Source: Marinimicrobium agarilyticum DSM 16975
GTDB lineage: Bacteria > Pseudomonadota > Gammaproteobacteria > Pseudomonadales > Cellvibrionaceae
Direction of reading: 5' to 3'
Assembly (NCBI RefSeq): GCF_000423345.1
Contig: NZ_AUHU01000003.1
Location: 248,001-312,000, forward strand
Length of the DNA stretch: 64,000 nucleotides
Of the stretch, positions 30,284 to 39,240 are shown one piece after another (position 1 is the first letter of the stretch; each line of letters begins with the position of its first letter). A program made the position numbers and the translations under genes. The notes under the pieces were generated by a model. That model did no database searches, had not been told where the DNA came from, and was given only the letters and a program-made list of their open reading frames with translations.

Positions 30284-33200
30284 CTATTTGGTATGGGCCT
30301 CACCAAAGCGCAAATACATGGCCGGGACCACCACCATATTCAAGGCGGTGGAGGTGAATAGCCCCCACAGAATAACGACCGCCATGGGTGCCTGGATTTC
30401 GCTGCCGGGTTCACCGGCGGCGAGTGCCAGAGGCACCAACGCCAGTGCTGTGCCCAGTGCGGTCATCAGGATGGGAATCAAGCGTTCTTCGGCGCCTTGC
30501 ATAATGGCCGCGCGCCTCGCCACGCCTTCATCGCGAATCAGGCGTTGGATATGGTCAATCAGAATAATGCCGTTGCGGGTGGCGATGCCAAACAGAGTGA
30601 TAAAACCGATGACCGCAGCAATGGTCAAAGTCCCACCGGTCAACCACACGCCCGCAATACCCCCGATGACAGCCAGAGGAAGGTTCAGCATGATCAGGCC
30701 GGCGTCGCGCATCGAGCCGAAAGCGGTCACCAACAGTAAAAAAATTCCTAGAATCACCGCCGCGCCCAGAAGCAGCAGCCGCGTTCCCGCCGACTGGGCA
30801 CTCTCGAATTGACCGCCGTACTCTATGTGGTATCCCGCCGGCAAGGGCACGTTCTCGCGCACCACCGTCTGAATATCCTCCACTACGCTGACCAGAGCGC
30901 GGTCCGCCACGTTGGCCATGACCACCAGCTTGCGCTGCACATCTTCCCGGGAGATGGTGTTGGGCCCGCGCCGTTTTTCAATCGTGGCCAGGGCGCTCAA
31001 CGAGGTCACCGCGCCGGAGGGCAGGGTAACCAGAGTTTGCTTCAGCGTTTCTACGGATGACTTGGCCTGCTCGGGTAAACGCACCACCAGATCAAAGGTC
31101 GATTGCCCTTCCATGATCTGGCTGACCACTGTTCCGGTAAAGGCCGTTTCCAGCAGCTCCGCCGCCTGCGACATACTCAAGCCGTAATTGGCCAGGGCCG
31201 GACGGTCGAACTTGACCGACACAAACGGAATTTCGCTCTGCTGCTCCATGGCCACATCGACCGCGCCGGGGACCTCGCTCACCAGGCTTTCCACTTCTTT
31301 GCCCAAGCGGCGAAGTTCAAACAAGTCCGCGCCAAAGATTTTGATGGCGATATTCGCCCGCGTACCGGACAGCATGTGATCGATGCGATGGGAAATGGGT
31401 TGGCCGATGATGACATTGGTGCCGGGAATCGAGGCGAAGCGTTGGCGCAGTGCGGCGAGCATCGCCTCTTTGCTGCGCTCGCCCATGTCCAGGGTCACAT
31501 CAATCTCCGAGGCGAACACCTGCTGTGCATGGGGGTCGAGTTCGGCCCGACCGGTGCGCCGGGCGGTGGCGACGACTTCGGGCTGCTCCAGCAGAATGTG
31601 TTCGACCCGCGCGCCAATCTCATCGGACGTTTCCAGAGCGGTTCCGGGCAGGGTGACCACGCTCAGGGTCAGGCTGCCCTCATTGAACTCGGGCAGAAAC
31701 CCTCTTCCCGCGAAGCCCAAAGCGATCAGTGCCAACACGAGCGTTGCGGCGGCCCCGCCAACGACCCATCGGGTATGGTTCAACGAGGCTTTCAACAACG
31801 GCCGATAACGCCGTTTGAGCCAGCCGATTAAGCGAGAGTCGTGGTCCTGTCGCACGGCCTTGCTGCCCGGCAGAAAATACAGACACAACACCGGTGTCAC
31901 CGTCAGGGCCACCAGCAAGGAGGCGGCCAGAGAAATGACGTAGGCAAAACCGAGCGGTTCCAGTAGTCGGCCTTCCACCCCGTCGAGGAAAAACAGCGGC
32001 AGAAACACCAGAACAATAATCAGCGTGGCGAAGACGATGGAGCTTTGAATTTCATGGGTGGCCCTTAGAACAACGGGCAGGGCCGGTTCGCGTTCCGGCT
32101 CGGGGCGTTGGGTGTTTTCCCGCAGGCGGCGGACAATGTTTTCCACGACTATGATGGCATCGTCCACGAGCGCGCCCATGGCGATGGCGATGCCGCCCAG
32201 AGTCATGGTGTTCAGCGTACCCCCCAGCCAGCGGATGGCCAGTACGGTCACCAGAACCGACAGGGGAATCGCCATCAGGGCAATACCCGTGGCCCGGGCG
32301 CTGACGAGAAAGATGAACATGATGGCGACTACCAGCACGGCGCCGTCGCGCAGGGCCACCAGAAGGTTGTCGATGGCGTTATCGATAAAACTCGCCTGGC
32401 GGAAGGCGTTGGTTTCAATACGCATACCCTCGGGCAGGCTTTGGCCCAGATCCGCAATGACGGTATCCAGGGATTCGGTCAATGCCAGGGTGTTTACATT
32501 GGGTTGCTTCTGAATGCCGAGCACCACCGCCGGATCGCCGTTGTAGGCGGCCGTGCCCCGGCGCGGTGCCGGCCCGATCACGACTTCGGCTACATCGCGT
32601 ACCAGAACCGGGGTGCCCTCGCGTTGGGTAATGACCGCCTCGCCGATGTCCTCAATGGTGTGGACGCGACCCAGTCCCTGAATCAGATACTCCTGCCGGT
32701 TTTCCGTGACGAAGCCCGCCGCCGCATTGGCGTTGGACTCGCCCACTGATGTGCGCAGCTGGTTCAGGGAAATACCGTAGGCAGAGAGACGCTCGGGAGA
32801 GGCCACTACCTGGTATTGGCGGGTCTCTCCCCCAATGGGAATCACTTCCGCCACGCCCGGCACGGCGAGTAGGCGACGGCGCACGGTCCAGTCTGCGGCC
32901 GTTTTCAGGGCCATCTCATCGTGGCGATCGGAGACCAGGGCAATGAACATGATCTCCCCCATAATCGACGATACCGGCGCCAGCACCGGCGCAGGCAGTT
33001 CCGGTGGCAAGGCCGCCCTGGTGGTTTGCAGCTTCTCCGACACGATCTGCCGGGCGCGATAGATGTCCGTGCCCCACTCGAATTCGACACTGATTACCGA
33101 GATGCCTACGCCGGTATTTGAGCGAACGCGGCGAACCCCGCTGGCGCCGTTCATGGCGGTTTCGATGGGGAAGGTCACTCGCCGTTCGACATCCTCCGGG

Positions 33201-33370
33201 GGCATGCCATGGGCTTCGGCGACAATGGTCACCACCGGTGCGGTCAGGTCCGGGAACACGTCCACCGGCGTGCGGCTGGCCATCCAGCCCCCGCCGACGA
33301 GCAGCGCGCCGGCTACCGCCAGAATCAACAAGCGGTTGCCGAGCGACCAGCGAATGATGGATTCAATCAT
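30284..33370 (-). CDS. HME-RND heavy-metal efflux pump (CusA/CzcA family)
   Basis: 1028-residue inner-membrane proton/metal antiporter. It has the RND layout of TM1 (residues 12-30), a periplasmic porter domain, six helices, a second porter domain and five helices. Transmembrane helix 4 reads GGIAIAMGALVDDAIIVVEN, carrying two Asp and a Glu as in heavy-metal RND pumps. FPDLTAPVVTIVAEA and the QxxP-like EVIPIGGETRQYQV regions also fit. Length is that of CusA/CzcA (about 1030-1060). Metal specificity (Cu/Ag versus Zn/Co/Ni) cannot be read confidently; the His-rich companion proteins fit Zn, Ni or Cu. Last gene of the operon. Confidence 0.93.
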   Translation of the reverse strand: MIESIIRWSLGNRLLILAVAGALLVGGGWMASRTPVDVFPDLTAPVVTIVAEAHGMPPEDVERRVTFPIETAMNGASGVRRVRSNTGVGISVISVEFEWGTDIYRARQIVSEKLQTTRAALPPELPAPVLAPVSSIMGEIMFIALVSDRHDEMALKTAADWTVRRRLLAVPGVAEVIPIGGETRQYQVVASPERLSAYGISLNQLRTSVGESNANAAAGFVTENRQEYLIQGLGRVHTIEDIGEAVITQREGTPVLVRDVAEVVIGPAPRRGTAAYNGDPAVVLGIQKQPNVNTLALTESLDTVIADLGQSLPEGMRIETNAFRQASFIDNAIDNLLVALRDGAVLVVAIMFIFLVSARATGIALMAIPLSVLVTVLAIRWLGGTLNTMTLGGIAIAMGALVDDAIIVVENIVRRLRENTQRPEPEREPALPVVLRATHEIQSSIVFATLIIVLVFLPLFFLDGVEGRLLEPLGFAYVISLAASLLVALTVTPVLCLYFLPGSKAVRQDHDSRLIGWLKRRYRPLLKASLNHTRWVVGGAAATLVLALIALGFAGRGFLPEFNEGSLTLSVVTLPGTALETSDEIGARVEHILLEQPEVVATARRTGRAELDPHAQQVFASEIDVTLDMGERSKEAMLAALRQRFASIPGTNVIIGQPISHRIDHMLSGTRANIAIKIFGADLFELRRLGKEVESLVSEVPGAVDVAMEQQSEIPFVSVKFDRPALANYGLSMSQAAELLETAFTGTVVSQIMEGQSTFDLVVRLPEQAKSSVETLKQTLVTLPSGAVTSLSALATIEKRRGPNTISREDVQRKLVVMANVADRALVSVVEDIQTVVRENVPLPAGYHIEYGGQFESAQSAGTRLLLLGAAVILGIFLLLVTAFGSMRDAGLIMLNLPLAVIGGIAGVWLTGGTLTIAAVIGFITLFGIATRNGIILIDHIQRLIRDEGVARRAAIMQGAEERLIPILMTALGTALALVPLALAAGEPGSEIQAPMAVVILWGLFTSTALNMVVVPAMYLRFGEAHTK

Positions 33371-33393: not shown

Positions 33394-34962
33394 TTAGTGG
33401 GCGTGGCCATGGCCGATCTCCTCGCCACCGGCCGCGGCCAGTTTGACGTAATAGGCGCCTTCGGAAACCACCCGATCCCCTTCGGCGATACCGCTCAGGA
33501 CCTCTACCCAGGGGCCGTCGTGCACCCCGAGCCGCACGGTGCGACGCTCGAAGGTTTCGCCCCCGGTCTGGACATAGACGACCGGTTGGCCGCTGTCGTC
33601 AATGATGGCGCTGCGTGGCATCGCCAGGCGCGCCGAGGGTTGGCCATAGAACACATGTGCCGGCATGCGGGCACCGATCAGTGTGGGCCCGATCTCGCTC
33701 GGGTACTCAAGTGTCACGGCGGCGGTGCGGGTGGCCGGGTCGATGACCGAGCGGGTGGAGACCAGGCGGGCCCGGTGTTGGGCATCCAGCACCAGGGGGC
33801 TGGCCTGCGAGTCCGAGGGCAACCAGGCGCCACTGGCGCGGCGCAGGTGTTCGGCGTGTTTTTCCGGGACCTGCACTTCCAGCCAGCGCCGCTCCGGCAC
33901 GGCCAGTGTGAACAGGGCATCGCCCGCGCGCACGAACGCTCCGGGTCTGACTCTGGCTTCCACCACTTCGGCGGCAATGGGCGCGCGCAGGGCAATGCCC
34001 GCTTGTTCGCGGCCGCCCCGGCGCTGCTGCAGGCGGGACTGGGCCGTCTGCATTTCCACCTCGGCGATTTCCAGGGCCTGCCGGGCTTCGAGCAATCGCC
34101 GCTCGGGAATGGCGCCCTGCTCGAACAGGGTCTGGAGCCGTTCCACATCCTGCCGGGCCAGTGCCAGGCGCGAGCGGGCGCGCTCCAGCTCAACCAGTAG
34201 GTTGCCGATATCCGCGCCTTCGCCCAAGCGGGGCACCAGATAACCGAGTGACTGATCGGCCTCGACGCTGTCACCGGCATTGATCAGGGCCGTGGTGGTG
34301 TAGTAGCCGTCGGAAGGGGCCCGCACGATGGCGCTGCCGTCAGCGGGAGCCTGCACGGTTCCGAAGCCGGGCACGGAGGGGCGCAGCGGCTGAACGCTAA
34401 CGGGTCGCGTCGCGAAGGGGTTGTCCCATTGCTGTTCCTTCAGATAGCTGATCTCACCGGGTGGCTCGCTCTGGCCGATGTGGGCGGACGCCGGGTCGGC
34501 GAACACCGTCACCTCACCGAGCTCGTGAACCGCCTGCAGGTCACCGTCGCGCACCGTCACCCGCAGTTGGTAGGTTCCGGCCTCGCGGGGCGTAACGGTC
34601 GGGGTGAAAATGCCCCGGCGAGCGGGCGCTTTGACGCGAAAGCGGGCCACGGTTTTGTCGCCCTGCAGAAGCGACACATCCATGATTCCGCGGGTAAGCG
34701 GCTCGAAGTCGGACAGCCGTGTGACATGGGCGGCCAGGGTCGATGGCTGGCCCACGACCAAGGGCGGAAATTCGACGAACAGCTCCGTCGATTCGCTGTA
34801 GTCGGTGTAGACCAGGGCGGGTTCGTCACTGTGCCCGTCCGCCTCGTCGTGGCTGCCACCGGCACCATGGGGGTGTCCGCCGCCGGCCTGAGAGCAGAGG
34901 CTCAGAGTGAGAGTGCCGAGCAGTAACGCCCAGCGTGCCCCCGTCTTAATGCTGGTGATCAT
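33394..34962 (-). CDS. Periplasmic adaptor (CusB/CzcB-type, HlyD family) with N-terminal extra domain
   Basis: 522 residues. Signal peptide (ALLLGTLTLSLCSQAG), a short His-rich stretch, and an immunoglobulin-like domain (about residues 45-155, with FEPLTRGIMDVSLLQGD and PREAGTYQLRVTVRDG). The adaptor proper follows: lipoyl half-motif APADGSAIVRAPSDGYY, alpha-helical hairpin (ERARSRLALARQDVERLQTLFEQG), barrel and membrane-proximal domains. ATG 34962 is chosen because it starts a proper signal peptide; the frame stays open further upstream only through the low-complexity His-rich gene. It overlaps that gene by 17 bases. Confidence 0.9.
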   Translation of the reverse strand: MITSIKTGARWALLLGTLTLSLCSQAGGGHPHGAGGSHDEADGHSDEPALVYTDYSESTELFVEFPPLVVGQPSTLAAHVTRLSDFEPLTRGIMDVSLLQGDKTVARFRVKAPARRGIFTPTVTPREAGTYQLRVTVRDGDLQAVHELGEVTVFADPASAHIGQSEPPGEISYLKEQQWDNPFATRPVSVQPLRPSVPGFGTVQAPADGSAIVRAPSDGYYTTTALINAGDSVEADQSLGYLVPRLGEGADIGNLLVELERARSRLALARQDVERLQTLFEQGAIPERRLLEARQALEIAEVEMQTAQSRLQQRRGGREQAGIALRAPIAAEVVEARVRPGAFVRAGDALFTLAVPERRWLEVQVPEKHAEHLRRASGAWLPSDSQASPLVLDAQHRARLVSTRSVIDPATRTAAVTLEYPSEIGPTLIGARMPAHVFYGQPSARLAMPRSAIIDDSGQPVVYVQTGGETFERRTVRLGVHDGPWVEVLSGIAEGDRVVSEGAYYVKLAAAGGEEIGHGHAH

Positions 34963-35308
34963 CCGCCCCGTCCCCGTCCCCGTGGTCGTGATGATCGTGG
35001 CCTTCCTCGTGGTCCTCATGGTGATCGGTCGAGGTTTCCATGGACATCTCTTCTGTGGAGGACTCGTCGGCCTCGTCGCCGTAATAAGCTTCGGTCTCGG
35101 GTTCATCGTGGCTGTGATCGCCCCCCTCATGCTCATGGGGCGCTTCGCCGTCGTGACTGTGATCGCCCTCGGCGTGTTCGTGGGCTTCGTCGCCGTTGTG
35201 GGGGTGGCCGTGGTCGTCGGCATCACTGCAGCCCGCGAGCAGACCAGCGGAGACCAGTAGTGCCATCAGTGTCGTGCTCAAGGTGTTCATGGTGGTTTTC
35301 TTCATCAT
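34946..35308 (-). CDS. Histidine-rich metal-binding lipoprotein
   Basis: 120 residues: lipoprotein signal with lipobox LLAGC (Cys27), then a mature chain almost wholly His, Asp, Glu and Gly with about 20 histidines in two clusters (roughly residues 32-70 and 92-120). A Tyr/Met-containing acidic spacer separates them. It is probably a periplasmic-face metal buffer or chaperone for the RND pump. Its ATG overlaps the TolC-family stop in ATGATGA, and its end overlaps the adaptor start, so it is translationally tied to both. No globular family is recognised. Confidence 0.85.
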   Translation of the reverse strand: MMKKTTMNTLSTTLMALLVSAGLLAGCSDADDHGHPHNGDEAHEHAEGDHSHDGEAPHEHEGGDHSHDEPETEAYYGDEADESSTEEMSMETSTDHHEDHEEGHDHHDHGDGDGADDHQH

Positions 35309-36501
35309 TGACCCTCCAACTGTTGTAATTGAATAAATGTCGTGCGCGCCGCTCGGGCGCTGTCGATATATTGAAGCCGGGTGTCCAGCTCGGTGCGATA
35401 GGCGTCCACCAGTTCCATCACGCTCAGTTCACCGGCCTGGTAGCTCGCCTCGGCGATGGCACTGAGCGAATCGTCTCCGGTGTTCATGGCCCGGCGTAAC
35501 TCTTGGGCCGATTCCCGTTGGGCCGCGAGCGTGAGGCGCAGCGCCCGGAGCTGTGCCCGCAGGCGATTGTGTGTCAGGGCATGGTCGGCGGCGTACTCAT
35601 GGGCCAGGCCCCGCGCCCGCTGAACATCTCCCTCGTTTCGGTCGAACAGAGGAATTTCCACGCTGAGTGCGATGGCATTGCCCTCGGCGGAATAGCCCCC
35701 CTCATCCAGCGTTTTGCGGCCCACGCCCAGGGAGACCTCTGGCCAGGCGGCCCGTCGCGCGGCTTTGGCTTTCAGCGTCGCGCTTTGCTCCAGCGCCGTC
35801 AGCATTTTCAGTTCCGGGTGCTGTTTCAGGGGGTGCTCTTCGTACGCCACCGCCGGGGGGAGCAGGGCACCGCCCAGGCGCTCCGGGTCACCGCCCACCA
35901 GGCTGAATAACTGCTCTCGTTGGGCCCGATGCCTGGCTTGTGCTTCGGTGGCGGCGCTCTGGGCACGGGTGCGTTCCTGGTTCATGCGCAGGCTGTCGTA
36001 CCGAGAGGCGTCGCCTTGGGCGACCCGCTGTTCGATCACGGTTGCCATCCGCTGCAGGCGTTGGCTGTGATCCGTCAGCGCCTGCGCGCGAATCTGGGCG
36101 GCAAGGGCGTCGTAAAATTGCTCGCGAATGCGCGCCCGCCATTGGCGACGCTCCATGACGACCCGGGTCTCGGCAGCCTCTTCGGTCATGGCCGCCGCGT
36201 CGCGTTCCAGTCCTTTACTGCCTGCCAGATCCAGCCGTTGGCGCACCCACCAGGTCGTCTCTTCACTCTGGCCGGACCGCAGGTCAAGGCTTTCTCGGCT
36301 GTATTCAATGTCCGGATTGTCCCAGCGCCCGGCGCTCAGACGCTCGCCTTCGGCCTGGTCCTGCTGGGCTTCAAGCAGGGACTGGATAGCCGGTTGCGCC
36401 ATGCCTTGCTCGATCGCGGCGGCTTCGGTCAGCTCGGCGTTGGCAAAAGGCGCAGTCAGCAGCGTCGCCATCACACAGAGAAGATAACCGGGCGTTTTCA
36501 T
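35305..36501 (-). CDS. TolC-family outer membrane channel (CusC/CzcC-type)
   Basis: 398 residues with a signal peptide (ATLLTAPFANA-EL). Two outer membrane efflux protein repeats are visible, with long coiled-coil helices and family-typical PEVSLGVGRKTLDEGGYS, ALSVEIPLFDRNEGD and the C-terminal AGELSVMELVDAYRTELDTRLQYIDS. It forms the outer-membrane exit of the RND pump. The start overlaps the M56 gene stop (ATGA), and its own stop overlaps the His-rich lipoprotein start. Confidence 0.92.
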   Translation of the reverse strand: MKTPGYLLCVMATLLTAPFANAELTEAAAIEQGMAQPAIQSLLEAQQDQAEGERLSAGRWDNPDIEYSRESLDLRSGQSEETTWWVRQRLDLAGSKGLERDAAAMTEEAAETRVVMERRQWRARIREQFYDALAAQIRAQALTDHSQRLQRMATVIEQRVAQGDASRYDSLRMNQERTRAQSAATEAQARHRAQREQLFSLVGGDPERLGGALLPPAVAYEEHPLKQHPELKMLTALEQSATLKAKAARRAAWPEVSLGVGRKTLDEGGYSAEGNAIALSVEIPLFDRNEGDVQRARGLAHEYAADHALTHNRLRAQLRALRLTLAAQRESAQELRRAMNTGDDSLSAIAEASYQAGELSVMELVDAYRTELDTRLQYIDSARAARTTFIQLQQLEGQ

Positions 36502-37460
36502 AGTCGAACCACCAGGCCAAGCAAGGTTTCCAGTGTGTGATGGTTGGCCGAGAGGCCGGCCAGCAGCGCCACTAAAAAAATGGCGATAACCGCTTCGAAA
36601 ACCGGCGTATCCCGGCCGCTTGGGGTGTCGGTCTTTAGCAGGGTCTGAATCCGTAGGGTGAGGTTTCCACCCCCGAACGCCGTCGGCACCGGAGCCGCTT
36701 GCGTACCCTGGGCGAACCGCAGAAGCAGTTCAGCGGTATCGGTTTTTCCGAAACGACGTGCCACCCGTTCGTCGGCGCGAAGCTCTATCGCCTCATGCCA
36801 AAGGTGCCGTAATGCTTGGGCGAAGGGTTTGAAATGCAAGAGCAGCAGGGTTTCCAATAGAGCACCGGCCTGTAGGTCCCGGTACCGAATGTGAGCGGCT
36901 TCGTGGGCAATAACCATTCGCCGCTCCCTTGGGGTGAGCTCGCCCAGCAGCCCTTGGGAGAGGTAGATGTGAGGCGCTGTGCCGCCGGCGGCAAACGCCA
37001 TCAGCCGAGAGTCGTCCAGTACGCGCAGCACGCCTTTGCCGCGGGATAGGGCGGTCAGGGCGCAAAGGCGGGTGGACTGCCGACGGTGCCGGTACCCATG
37101 CCGTAGGCACAACAGAGCGAAAACCGATAAAGCGGCCGCGGTGATGGCCACATGCCAATGGCCGTGCGCGAGCAGCATTTCCGGCAGATGTTCGAAGCAG
37201 AAGTGCGGGTGGTGCGGCGCGTGAAGGGTGCAGTGGTCGTGCACCCAGCCGAGGCGTTTGGCGCTCGCCAACAGGGCCATGGCAAGAGCGGCCGTCATAG
37301 GAACGAGCCACGGTAAGGCTGCCACCAGGAGAATACGGCGTGGTTGCGATCGCCCTTGGGCAGGGCACCTTTTTAGCCACTCGATAGTGAAAGGAACGAG
37401 CGTCTGTGCCAGCGCCCAGCCCAGTAATCCCAGCAGAGCAAACAGCCAGAGAAGCGTCAT
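36498..37460 (-). CDS. M56-family (BlaR1-like) membrane protease with His/Cys-rich loop
   Basis: 320 residues, four predicted membrane helices. The zinc protease motif HEAAH (His186, Glu187, His190) sits in MVIAHEAAHIRYRDLQAG, as in BlaR1/MecR1. Between the second and third helices, residues 71-103 hold ten His (74, 76, 80, 83, 84, 86, 91, 99, 101, 103) and two Cys (77, 88), a likely metal-sensing loop. The C-terminal penicillin-binding sensor of BlaR1 is absent. It lies between the BlaI-type repressor and the efflux genes with four-base overlaps, so it probably cleaves or triggers loss of the repressor when metal binds. Confidence 0.88.
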   Translation of the reverse strand: MTLLWLFALLGLLGWALAQTLVPFTIEWLKRCPAQGRSQPRRILLVAALPWLVPMTAALAMALLASAKRLGWVHDHCTLHAPHHPHFCFEHLPEMLLAHGHWHVAITAAALSVFALLCLRHGYRHRRQSTRLCALTALSRGKGVLRVLDDSRLMAFAAGGTAPHIYLSQGLLGELTPRERRMVIAHEAAHIRYRDLQAGALLETLLLLHFKPFAQALRHLWHEAIELRADERVARRFGKTDTAELLLRFAQGTQAAPVPTAFGGGNLTLRIQTLLKTDTPSGRDTPVFEAVIAIFLVALLAGLSANHHTLETLLGLVVRL

Positions 37461-37861
37461 TGTCTGGCCTCCTGCTGCCGACGCTCACGGATTGCCTGCT
37501 CCAGCAACTCCAGCGTCTGGCTATCGATACGCTCGGCCGCATCGAGCATGGCCGCGACCGAGGAGGCCGAGTCGCCACCAAAACGGCCCAGCACCTGGTT
37601 GATCAGCGAGGATAAAAACGCCTGGCGGGTGATCGCCGCGCGGTAGCAGTAAGCGTGGCTTTCCTTGTGTCGGGTCAGCAGTTGCTTGCGAAACAACCGC
37701 TCCAGCGTGGACTGTACGGTGTTGAGGGTAACGCCGCGCGCCTGCCCGAATGCCTCGTGAGCCTGCTTGGCGGTGCTGCCGCCTGGTTCTGCCCATAGGT
37801 GTTCCATGGCGAGCGTTTCCAGGTCTCCCAACGGCATGGAGCTGACAGGTTTTACTGACAT
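37457..37861 (-). CDS. blaI: BlaI/MecI/CopY-family transcriptional repressor
   Basis: 134 residues. Winged-helix N-terminus: LGDLETLAMEHLWAEPGGSTAKQAHEAF, recognition region TLNTVQSTLERLFRKQLLTRHKESHAYCY. A C-terminal dimerisation helix segment follows. No CopY-type CxCx4CxC metal site is present, so the sensing step is likely done by the M56 partner whose gene overlaps. First gene of the efflux operon; it probably represses its own promoter, where a long inverted repeat is found. Confidence 0.9.
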   Translation of the reverse strand: MSVKPVSSMPLGDLETLAMEHLWAEPGGSTAKQAHEAFGQARGVTLNTVQSTLERLFRKQLLTRHKESHAYCYRAAITRQAFLSSLINQVLGRFGGDSASSVAAMLDAAERIDSQTLELLEQAIRERRQQEARQ

Positions 37862-38352
37862 AGGGTGGCTACTTCACAAGGGTGATGGTTGGGAGCATGC
37901 TACGCCGCCAAAAAACCGACCGTCAATCGGTTTTTTGGCGGCCTCTCAATCACGAGAGGACATGAACACCATGCTCCTGATCAGCGTCATCGCCTGAACT
38001 CTTTGCAAAACGACGTAAAGTGAATAACAACAAATTATTTTAATAACAAATTAGTCTATTTTTTTAAGTTCCATTTTTGAATATTAACAGTCTCTTTTAA
38101 TTACTGTTGCTTCTCTAAACCGTCCTGAACTGTGACAGGGCCCGCATTTATCGGGCGGTGCCACGGAGAGCCACGAGTTTTTGTTGTGTTAATAACTAAC
38201 AAATAATACTTATTAATTTGAAAATAACTATCCGGTGTGCTTTTATCGACCCTGCCTTTCGAAACAAAACTTGTGCGAAACAAGCTTGGGCTGTTTTTGA
38301 AAGGCCTTGTGTCCATTCACACTTCACACCACGAAAAAGAGGGTAGATAACA
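37862..38352. other. Divergent control region between the metal operon and the LPMO gene
   Basis: Besides the inverted repeat at 37904-37942, this 490-bp gap holds a GCCCG/CGGGC hairpin near 38140-38156 and a very AT-rich block (38025-38100 and 38185-38230) that probably contains the LPMO promoter. No gene is convincing. Confidence 0.5.
37904..37942. promoter_or_regulatory. Perfect 16-bp inverted repeat, candidate BlaI operator
   Basis: Left arm GCCGCCAAAAAACCGA (37904-37919), 7-base loop, exact complement TCGGTTTTTTGGCGGC (37927-37942). It lies 43-81 bases upstream of the repressor ATG. No gene reads into it, so a terminator role is less likely than an operator. It does not match the TACA-N2-TGTA BlaI/CopY consensus. 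Confidence 0.5.
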
Positions 38353-39240
38353 ATGAAGACACAGTGGTTAAGCCGCGTCGTAATCAAAACATTCAGCATC
38401 GGGTGCCTGGCACTGGCGGGGACGGCCGCGTCTCAGCTGGCCAGCGCTCACGGTACCATCACCTCTCCGGAAAGCCGGATCTGGAACTGTAAAGAGCAGG
38501 GCCAGAACCCGAGCTCTGCCGCGTGTGCGGCGGCGATTGCCGAAAGCGGCACTCAGCAGATTTATGACTGGAACGGCATTCGCCAGGGGGCGGCCGACGG
38601 TCAGCACGAGACTGTGGTTCCGGACGGCCAGCTGTGTAGCGGTGGCGACCCCGGTACCTTTGGGGGCCAGGACCTGGCCCGCACCGACTGGGAAGCGACG
38701 CCGGTGTCCGGCTCACAGACGTTCACCTGGTACAACTCCGCGCCGCACAAGTCGCTTTACTACCGCTATTACATCACCAAGTCTTCCTATGATCCTTCAC
38801 AGCCACTGACCTGGGACGATCTGGAATACCTGATGGAAACCGACCCCAAGCCGGGTGAAACTTACCCGAGCCACACTGTCAGCCTGCCGAACCGCAATGG
38901 CAAACACGTGGTGTACGCCGTATGGCAGCGTTCGGACAGCCCGGAAGCCTTCTACGCCTGTGTGGATGTGGTGTTCAATGGGGACGGCGGTGGCTCCTCC
39001 AGTAGTTCGTCCTCCTCCAGCGAGAGCTCTTCGAGCAGCTCCAGCTCGTCTGATGGCAATGACAACAACGTCTGCGTCGGCATCCCGAACTGGAGCTCCA
39101 ATGCTGTGTACACCCAGGGTGACCAGGTTCGTTACAACGACAACCGTTACGAAGCCAAATGGTGGACTCAGGGTCAGCCGCCGGCCGATCACAGCTCCCA
39201 GTGGGCCGTGTGGATCGACCAGGGCGCTTGCGCTCAGTAA
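38353..39240 (+). CDS. AA10 lytic polysaccharide monooxygenase with C-terminal chitin-binding-type module
   Basis: 295 residues. The signal peptide ends ...SQLASA and leaves His33 as the mature N-terminus, the first copper ligand of the histidine brace. The AA10 domain spans about 33-212, with TFTWYNSAPHKSLYYRYYI (second His) and the EAFYACVDVVF end with the axial Phe. A serine-rich linker (about 215-237) leads to a 55-residue module with conserved aromatics (NWSSNAVYTQGDQV, YEAKWWTQGQPP) of CBM5/12 or CBM73 type, bounded by two Cys. Chitin is the likely substrate; cellulose activity is possible. Secreted. Confidence 0.93.
   Translation: MKTQWLSRVVIKTFSIGCLALAGTAASQLASAHGTITSPESRIWNCKEQGQNPSSAACAAAIAESGTQQIYDWNGIRQGAADGQHETVVPDGQLCSGGDPGTFGGQDLARTDWEATPVSGSQTFTWYNSAPHKSLYYRYYITKSSYDPSQPLTWDDLEYLMETDPKPGETYPSHTVSLPNRNGKHVVYAVWQRSDSPEAFYACVDVVFNGDGGGSSSSSSSSSESSSSSSSSSDGNDNNVCVGIPNWSSNAVYTQGDQVRYNDNRYEAKWWTQGQPPADHSSQWAVWIDQGACAQ

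Follow-up and report, generated by a model that had tools for sequence, protein, structure and literature searches.

How is a heavy metal efflux resistance-nodulation-division (HME-RND) operon controlled when the genes at its head encode a BlaI-type repressor and an M56 membrane protease? HME-RND pumps are usually under two-component or MerR-type control, and for pumps such as CzcCBA, CusCBA and ZneCAB the best-known cases are governed by two-component systems. The operon studied here lies in a 64,000-nucleotide stretch (the window) of contig NZ_AUHU01000003.1 (positions 248,001 to 312,000) of Marinimicrobium agarilyticum DSM 16975. Like those three it encodes tripartite metal efflux, ZneA being the best solved relative of its pump, but, judged from sequence, it appears to be controlled by BlaI and M56. 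We consider there to be a good probability that the two form a one-protease, one-repressor envelope metal switch controlling the pump operon.

A BlaI/M56 Pair Heads a Metal Efflux Operon

The operon is on the minus strand, in the order BlaI, M56, outer membrane efflux protein (OMF), His-rich protein, membrane fusion protein (MFP) and HME-RND pump. An original prediction, made from the letters of this DNA, placed a BlaI/M56 pair at 36498-37861 at the head of an HME-RND operon, and both parts of this claim hold. The open reading frames (ORFs) of the BlaI-type repressor (134 residues, 37457-37861) and the short M56 protease (320 residues, 36498-37460) are found there on the minus strand, their families are confirmed by Pfam (Penicillinase_R, 69.2 bits; Peptidase_M56, 46 bits against a cut-off of 31), and the blaI/M56 and M56/OMF ORF overlaps are of 4 bases each. 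The OMF (35305-36501) matches OEP at 82.2 bits, the CzcB-like MFP, of the HlyD/CzcB type (33394-34962), matches RND_mfp at 126.9 bits (cut-off 94.9), and the 1028-residue pump (30284-33370) matches ACR_tran at 909.5 bits, with ZneA (544.5 bits) and CusA as its top solved relatives. The operon has the composition of an HME-RND system, namely an OMF, an MFP and an RND protein with metal-pump relatives. The longest MFP ORF begins at 35226; the start is probably at 34962, because a signal-peptide-like sequence comes after it. The His-rich protein (120 residues, 34946-35308), with a lipobox-like LLAGC noted by inspection, is found again in several related operons.

In the HMMER alignment, counted by hand, the CusA methionines, which we take to be M573, M623 and M672, stand opposite Ser, Ala and His in the window pump. 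Since all three are replaced, the alignment hints, weakly, at a divalent metal (Zn, Cd, Co or Ni) rather than Cu(I) or Ag(I), and a CusA-type Cu(I)/Ag(I) pump was judged unlikely on this alignment inference.

The Protease Is Predicted to Share the BlaR1 Fold

The original prediction that the M56 protein keeps the HEAAH motif and has lost the β-lactam sensor is borne out. The zinc protease motif is at residues 186-190 (36891-36905, minus strand), Pfam gave M56 and M48 matches only, with no penicillin-binding sensor domain in the protein, and the C terminus is reached only 13 residues past H307. Residues H186, E187, H190, D195, E226 and D230 are invariant in 12 aligned proteins, and their spacing resembles that of BlaR1 H201, H205, D210, E242 and D246, as in an M56 gluzincin.

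The AlphaFold2 model (predicted local distance difference test, pLDDT, 85.2) has long helices at 2-31, 49-69, 102-138 and 287-305 and an end helix at 307-319. It aligns with BlaR1 (8exs) at Z 13.9 and a root-mean-square deviation of 5.4 over 226 residues (model 11-268, chain 1-290), with transmembrane helices (TM) 1-3 and the protease domain arranged in matching order, and the second-ranked fold family, ZMPSTE24, reaches Z 9.4. The link to BlaR1 is weaker in sequence than in fold, the profile matches being 2.9e-6 for HtpX and 0.022 for BlaR1. According to the excerpted text of PMC9834060, both termini of BlaR1 are outside, extracellular loop 1 (EL1, residues 56-96) lies extracellularly between helices 2 and 3, and the active site is toward the cytosol. 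The predicted structure likewise has an outer loop between TM2 and TM3 (residues 74-103; 37152-37241, minus strand), and in the model this His/Cys loop is the counterpart of BlaR1 EL1. In 14 proteins of clade A, the branch that includes the window protein, the His/Cys loop has 0-3 Lys plus Arg, the loop from TM1 to TM2 has 0-5 and the stretch after TM3 has 2-5, in agreement with the positive-inside rule, with exceptions such as L047 and L030 (L and G numbers are our labels for loci and genomes). Because of this distribution and the BlaR1-like topology, the loop is probably periplasmic.

The Gene Order Recurs in a Family of Short M56 Proteins

A tree of 41 M56 proteins splits 26 short ones (15 in clade A, 4 in clade B, 6 in clade C, and L092) from 15 long ones, the latter a subset of all M56 matches that served as outgroup, by a branch with 100/100 support. 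Support is 100/99 for clade A and 98/92 for clade C, and weak (82/40) for clade B. Loci L027 and L041 are the same genomic place, as are L028 and L045, and each place was counted once; L113 (G608) has the same M56 protein as L040, and the distant matches L051 and L052 were excluded. L112-L126 were added after the tree and stand outside it, L112 being placed in clade B on a weak BLAST match.

M56 and BlaI genes are adjacent in all 15 clade A loci, and MFP and RND genes lie downstream in 14 of them, accompanied by an OMF gene in 11. The exceptions are three Pleionea loci, which have no OMF, and L041 (Exilibacterium), which has no OMF, MFP or RND. The M56-BlaI-RND order that the original prediction proposed to look for in other genomes is therefore a recurrent one. 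In clade B, the order on Shewanella and Pseudoalteromonas plasmids is BlaI-M56-TolC-adaptor-CusA/CzcA-HupE/UreJ; a Glaciecola plasmid has the same order with the last gene annotated as hypothetical, and L035 has HupE without RND. A plasmid of Shewanella sp. ANA-3 is among those with the clade B operon. In clade C, BlaI-M56 is divergent from a TonB-dependent receptor gene (checked with Pfam in L031, L032 and L111, and assigned by likeness in the rest).

Clade B M56 relatives were seen on nine plasmids, six from Shewanella and one each from Glaciecola, Pseudoalteromonas and Salmonella (from pork), six of the nine being typed as conjugative; gene order was examined on four of these records (Glaciecola and three others).

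A Shared Operator Lies Upstream of blaI

Upstream of the window blaI is a 39-base dyad (37904-37942, minus strand) whose core, at 37912-37934, reads AAAACCGATTGACGGTCGGTTTT on the minus strand. By inspection, a −35-like TTGACG (37921-37926) lies within the dyad and a −10-like TAGCAT (37897-37902) lies 18 bases downstream of it, both on the minus strand. A weight matrix scan placed the operator consensus AAAACCGATTGACNRTCGGTTTT just upstream of blaI in all 15 clade A loci; inspection again puts the TTGAC of the −35 box inside the dyad, and in most of these loci a TAnnnT-like −10 follows about 16-18 bases on. The BlaI motif LGxLE starts 60-104 bases past the operator in every clade A locus, with an in-frame start codon between, and in L028, L040, L047, L049 and L064, where the longest blaI ORF begins upstream, the start must shift past the operator. 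L109 (G047), cut near the operon start by a contig end, is uninformative on the operator.

Three blind searches, which used overlapping genome sets, led to places that all adjoin a BlaI gene or an HME-RND operon. The pattern AAAACCGATTGNNNNTCGGTTTT was found in 3 of 369 genomes of the class (reversed control 0), each time at a BlaI/short-M56 pair. The pattern AACCGATNGNNNRTCGGTT was found in 6 of 58 relatives at seven places (control 1), five at such a pair, one (in G026) at a BlaI-MFP-RND group that lacks M56 and one (on contig C48 of G027) at an OMF-RND group that lacks the pair. The third pattern, AAAACCGATNNNNNATCGGTTTT, which misses the window site since the right half there is GTCGG, was found in 9 of 390 genomes of the order, from 4 genera, and all of its 12 places flank a BlaI/short-M56 pair (control 0). 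The window genome has one operator site only, allowing up to 3 mismatches.

Those clade B loci that were scanned likewise have the operator. For clade C a separate operator had been expected, since a dyad search did not show this one there, and this idea was dropped when the weight matrix found degenerate forms of the same operator. Run over whole 9-16 kb clade C loci, the clade A matrix had its best site in the interval that separates blaI from the TonB receptor gene in six of six, at only 7.8 to 18.1 bits; in L111, a kindred locus, the score in the same interval was 29.4 bits.

G027 offers a test in trans. Its contig C44 carries a clade A pair without adjoining HME-RND genes, and its contig C48 carries a window-type pump, 62% identical and without a second match in that genome at E 1e-200 or better, in an RND operon that has no BlaI or M56 alongside, yet two operators. 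This arrangement fits a repressor and a pump that would be wired by the operator alone. Taken with the searches above, the shared operator links the BlaI/M56 pair to metal pumps.

His and Cys Residues Are Conserved in the Loop and the Tail

Residues 74-103 contain ten His (74, 76, 80, 83, 84, 86, 91, 99, 101, 103) and two Cys (77, 88), as the original prediction had counted; the conserved set is smaller, as H74, H83, H99, H101 and H103 vary among clade A proteins, and centres on the core DHC-x2-H-x3-HPH-x-C-x2-H. The 15 orthologues, 27-42% identical to the window M56 protein, all keep H76, C77, C88 and a C-terminal HHxxE, which in the window is HHTLE (residues 307-311; 36528-36542, minus strand), directly after TM4. 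No substitution of H76, C77, C88, H307 or H308 occurs among 14 aligned clade A proteins, of which 93% have H80, H84 and H86 and 86% have H91; the fifteenth, L064, retains the whole loop motif. Mean conservation in the 14 is 0.69 for loop residues 75-93 and 0.80 for tail residues 307-315, against 0.49 overall and 0.56 for residues 130-230, and the conservation of the loop His and Cys of this core set exceeds chance. A loop that was cytoplasmic and unconserved, the first outcome named beforehand as fatal to the idea, is not what we find: the loop is predicted to be extracytoplasmic, and few parts of the protein are as well conserved.

All 37 short M56 proteins tabulated have at least 4 His plus Cys in the EL1 stretch, and in all 37 an H just after TM4 has an E or D three or four residues beyond it. 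The maximum of His plus Cys per 20 residues before HExxH is 4-9 in clade A (15 rows), 4 in clade B (4 rows), 5-7 in clade C (6 rows) and 0-4 in 26 others, a control group that includes a few HtpX-like proteins and L092 (4 His plus Cys), itself a short M56 protein; the L043 row (359 residues), a wrong ORF, was dropped from the clade A counts.

Counter-Evidence and Alternative Explanations

A number of observations weigh against a metal-gated protease, and we set them out here with the alternatives on which they bear. The loop itself is modelled at a pLDDT of only 60-69. Clade B loops have HWHH and, in 14 of 15 rows, no Cys, so that ligand sets differ by branch, and L050 (Thiomicrospira) retains the operon with most of the loop His gone and four His plus Cys left. 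C77 and C88 could form a disulfide, in which case the protein might be a redox sensor whose protease reports periplasmic oxidation or misfolding, not metal; indeed, C77 and C88, together with H76, persist even in L050. We hold this to be unlikely, as the mostly Cys-free clade B proteins keep HWHH and their loci the operator, the H-x2/3-[ED] tail runs through all 37 short proteins, and the operons of clades A and B carry genes for metal pumps and, in many cases, for His-rich proteins.

The repressor raises further difficulties for the proteolytic switch. The S. aureus scissile bond N101-F102 was sought, and no Asn-Phe occurs anywhere in 19 aligned BlaI proteins; all 15 clade A BlaI proteins have AA-x-[LVI]-[DNEQ] in the segment aligned to the cleavage site. 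In G026 (L066 6239-6631), BlaI and an operator head MFP and RND genes with no adjacent M56, and the segment of this BlaI that matches the cleavage site has diverged. Such an arrangement would suit a BlaI that is itself the sensor, as in CopY, with M56 as an accessory or quality-control protease, an idea also favoured by the M48/HtpX models that match the M56 protease domain and by the BlaI of L064, conceivably a metal-binding repressor, with three clustered Cys (91, 95, 98). The window BlaI, however, was predicted to have no metal ligands and agrees with that description: it has a single Cys (72) and no CxC, and scores 35.1 bits with the CopY family model TIGR02698 (cut-off 121.95), on which grounds a CopY-type reading was rejected. 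CxC is absent from all 19 aligned BlaI proteins, and those of four clade A loci (L029, L030, L042, L043) and of L044 have no Cys at all. The conserved His and Cys reside in the M56 protein, next to BlaI throughout clade A, and a sensing BlaI seems to us quite improbable.

The lone pair of G027 (L027 4653-7961) has a MlaC-like and then an MMPL-family gene downstream on the same strand, which could be its targets. These envelope genes would accord with a third explanation, that the loop is a metal relay feeding or buffering the pump and that the protease signals something else, such as envelope stress; the His-rich segments present in both the 120-residue protein and the MFP of the window operon point the same way. 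Clade C pairs, on the other hand, have the loop and tail His/Cys though their loci show no match to the window RND pump, and we give the relay very little credence. The same clade C pairs adjoin TonB receptors of unassigned substrate, which adds to the difficulties of a metal switch, as does G021, where the 15 kb retrieved around a 61% identical pump contain neither a BlaI or M56 match nor an operator (best site −1.5 bits). Counter-cases of this kind narrow the proposal, in that some such pumps do without the protease and the precise set of ligands is variable. The gene order, the conserved protease site, loop and tail and the shared operator are read from the sequences themselves, the topology is a prediction, and metal binding, activation of the protease, BlaI cleavage and metal induction are inferred steps.

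Proposed Mechanism

In the metal switch that we favour, BlaI would bind the dyad covering the −35 box and repress the whole operon, its own gene included, as the position and conservation of the site suggest. From the predicted fold and the homology with BlaR1, the M56 protease would reside in the inner membrane with both termini on the outer side and the zinc active site facing the cytoplasm. EL1 (H76, C77, C88 and usually H80, H84, H86 and H91) and the HHxxE tail would probably make up a single periplasmic metal site, which may stand in for the contact between EL1 and the sensor domain in BlaR1. Excess metal in the periplasm would bind this site and activate the protease, which would then cut BlaI within or close to the dimerisation region of the repressor; production of the OMF, the His-rich protein, the MFP and the RND pump would follow.

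That the switch works through regulated cleavage of BlaI has good indirect support, because the gene order recurs and the shared operator ties the pair to metal pumps. To this extent the metal-responsive proteolysis of the original prediction stands; it has to be narrowed in that some of the ten His vary and that PetR/PetP provides a precedent.

Relation to Known Systems

PetR/PetP of Synechocystis sp. PCC 6803 was reportedly described by Garcia-Canas et al. in 2021. In this system, as given in excerpts of four papers (PMC7896320, PMC12292863, PMC13421787, PMC10141476), copper activates a BlaR-family membrane protease, which degrades a BlaI-family regulator. A metal-responsive switch of the BlaI/BlaR protease type is therefore already known in principle, and the principle is not new. 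The window is similar in that the genes for a BlaI-type regulator and a BlaR-type membrane protease are neighbours, and different in that, in those excerpts, PetR/PetP targets petE and petJ, not metal efflux, and PetR activates too. BlaR homologues in Alteromonas and other heterotrophic marine species are described, in the excerpt of PMC10141476, as having a role that awaits elucidation.

With BlaR1/BlaI and MecR1/MecI of staphylococci and Bacillus licheniformis the pair has in common an M56 gluzincin membrane protease, in the window predicted to be N-out and C-out with an outer EL1, and a BlaI-type repressor. It differs from them in that the window M56 protein is without the penicillin-binding sensor domain and bears His and Cys in EL1, and in that the window BlaI has no N101-F102 bond and no TACAnnTGTA box near its gene. 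CopY and TcrY of Firmicutes are likewise BlaI/CopY family repressors of metal efflux genes, and CopY is not known to need a protease. The window BlaI differs in falling far under the TIGR02698 cut-off, and the cop box TACAnnTGTA was not found in window positions 37701-38352. CopY binds metal itself via a C-terminal CxC, according to the excerpt of PMC10141476.

We lean slightly towards a broader view, in which a gammaproteobacterial family of transmembrane metal-gated proteases, with a composite periplasmic EL1 and HHxxE site replacing the antibiotic sensor of BlaR1 and a BlaI that reads AAAACCGAT-N5-ATCGGTTTT, would control HupE proteins and TonB receptors as well as metal efflux pumps, both on chromosomes and on conjugative plasmids. 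The open-licence papers searched do not name such a protease family, and none was found among them that deals with this operon type, in which a BlaI/M56 pair would control a metal RND pump, or with the operator, absences that carry little weight. If the family is real, the BlaR1 scaffold can be re-tuned by altering its outer face alone, regulated proteolysis joins the controls of HME-RND pumps, and a small system becomes available in which signal passage through a membrane protease depends on a simple, removable ligand. The operator would also serve as a genome-wide handle on regulon members without knowledge of the regulator, as with the G027 pump operon on another contig.

Additional Observations

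Clade B operons have a second operator between the M56 and TolC genes, 32 bases within the annotated TolC frame (L124 4048, L125 9039, L126 9030, L053 7727); its translation in L038 and L065 would be KPIxDRLF, close to the N terminus of the TolC protein. Either the TolC starts are annotated too far upstream or the operator is part of the coding sequence.

The clade C receptors (L031-L034, L036, L037, L111) have a signature near VEGRxTNLVGEAxSASEG...GKANQYFLRGFN. The window genome encodes a second M56 protein (L001, G000:C5:195216-195947), which is long (778 residues from the first start) and has no His/Cys-rich loop. Divergent from blaI in the window, and about 410 bases from the operator, is a gene (38353-39240, plus strand) whose product is a lytic polysaccharide monooxygenase of the copper-dependent family AA10 (LPMO_10) with a CBM5/12 domain.

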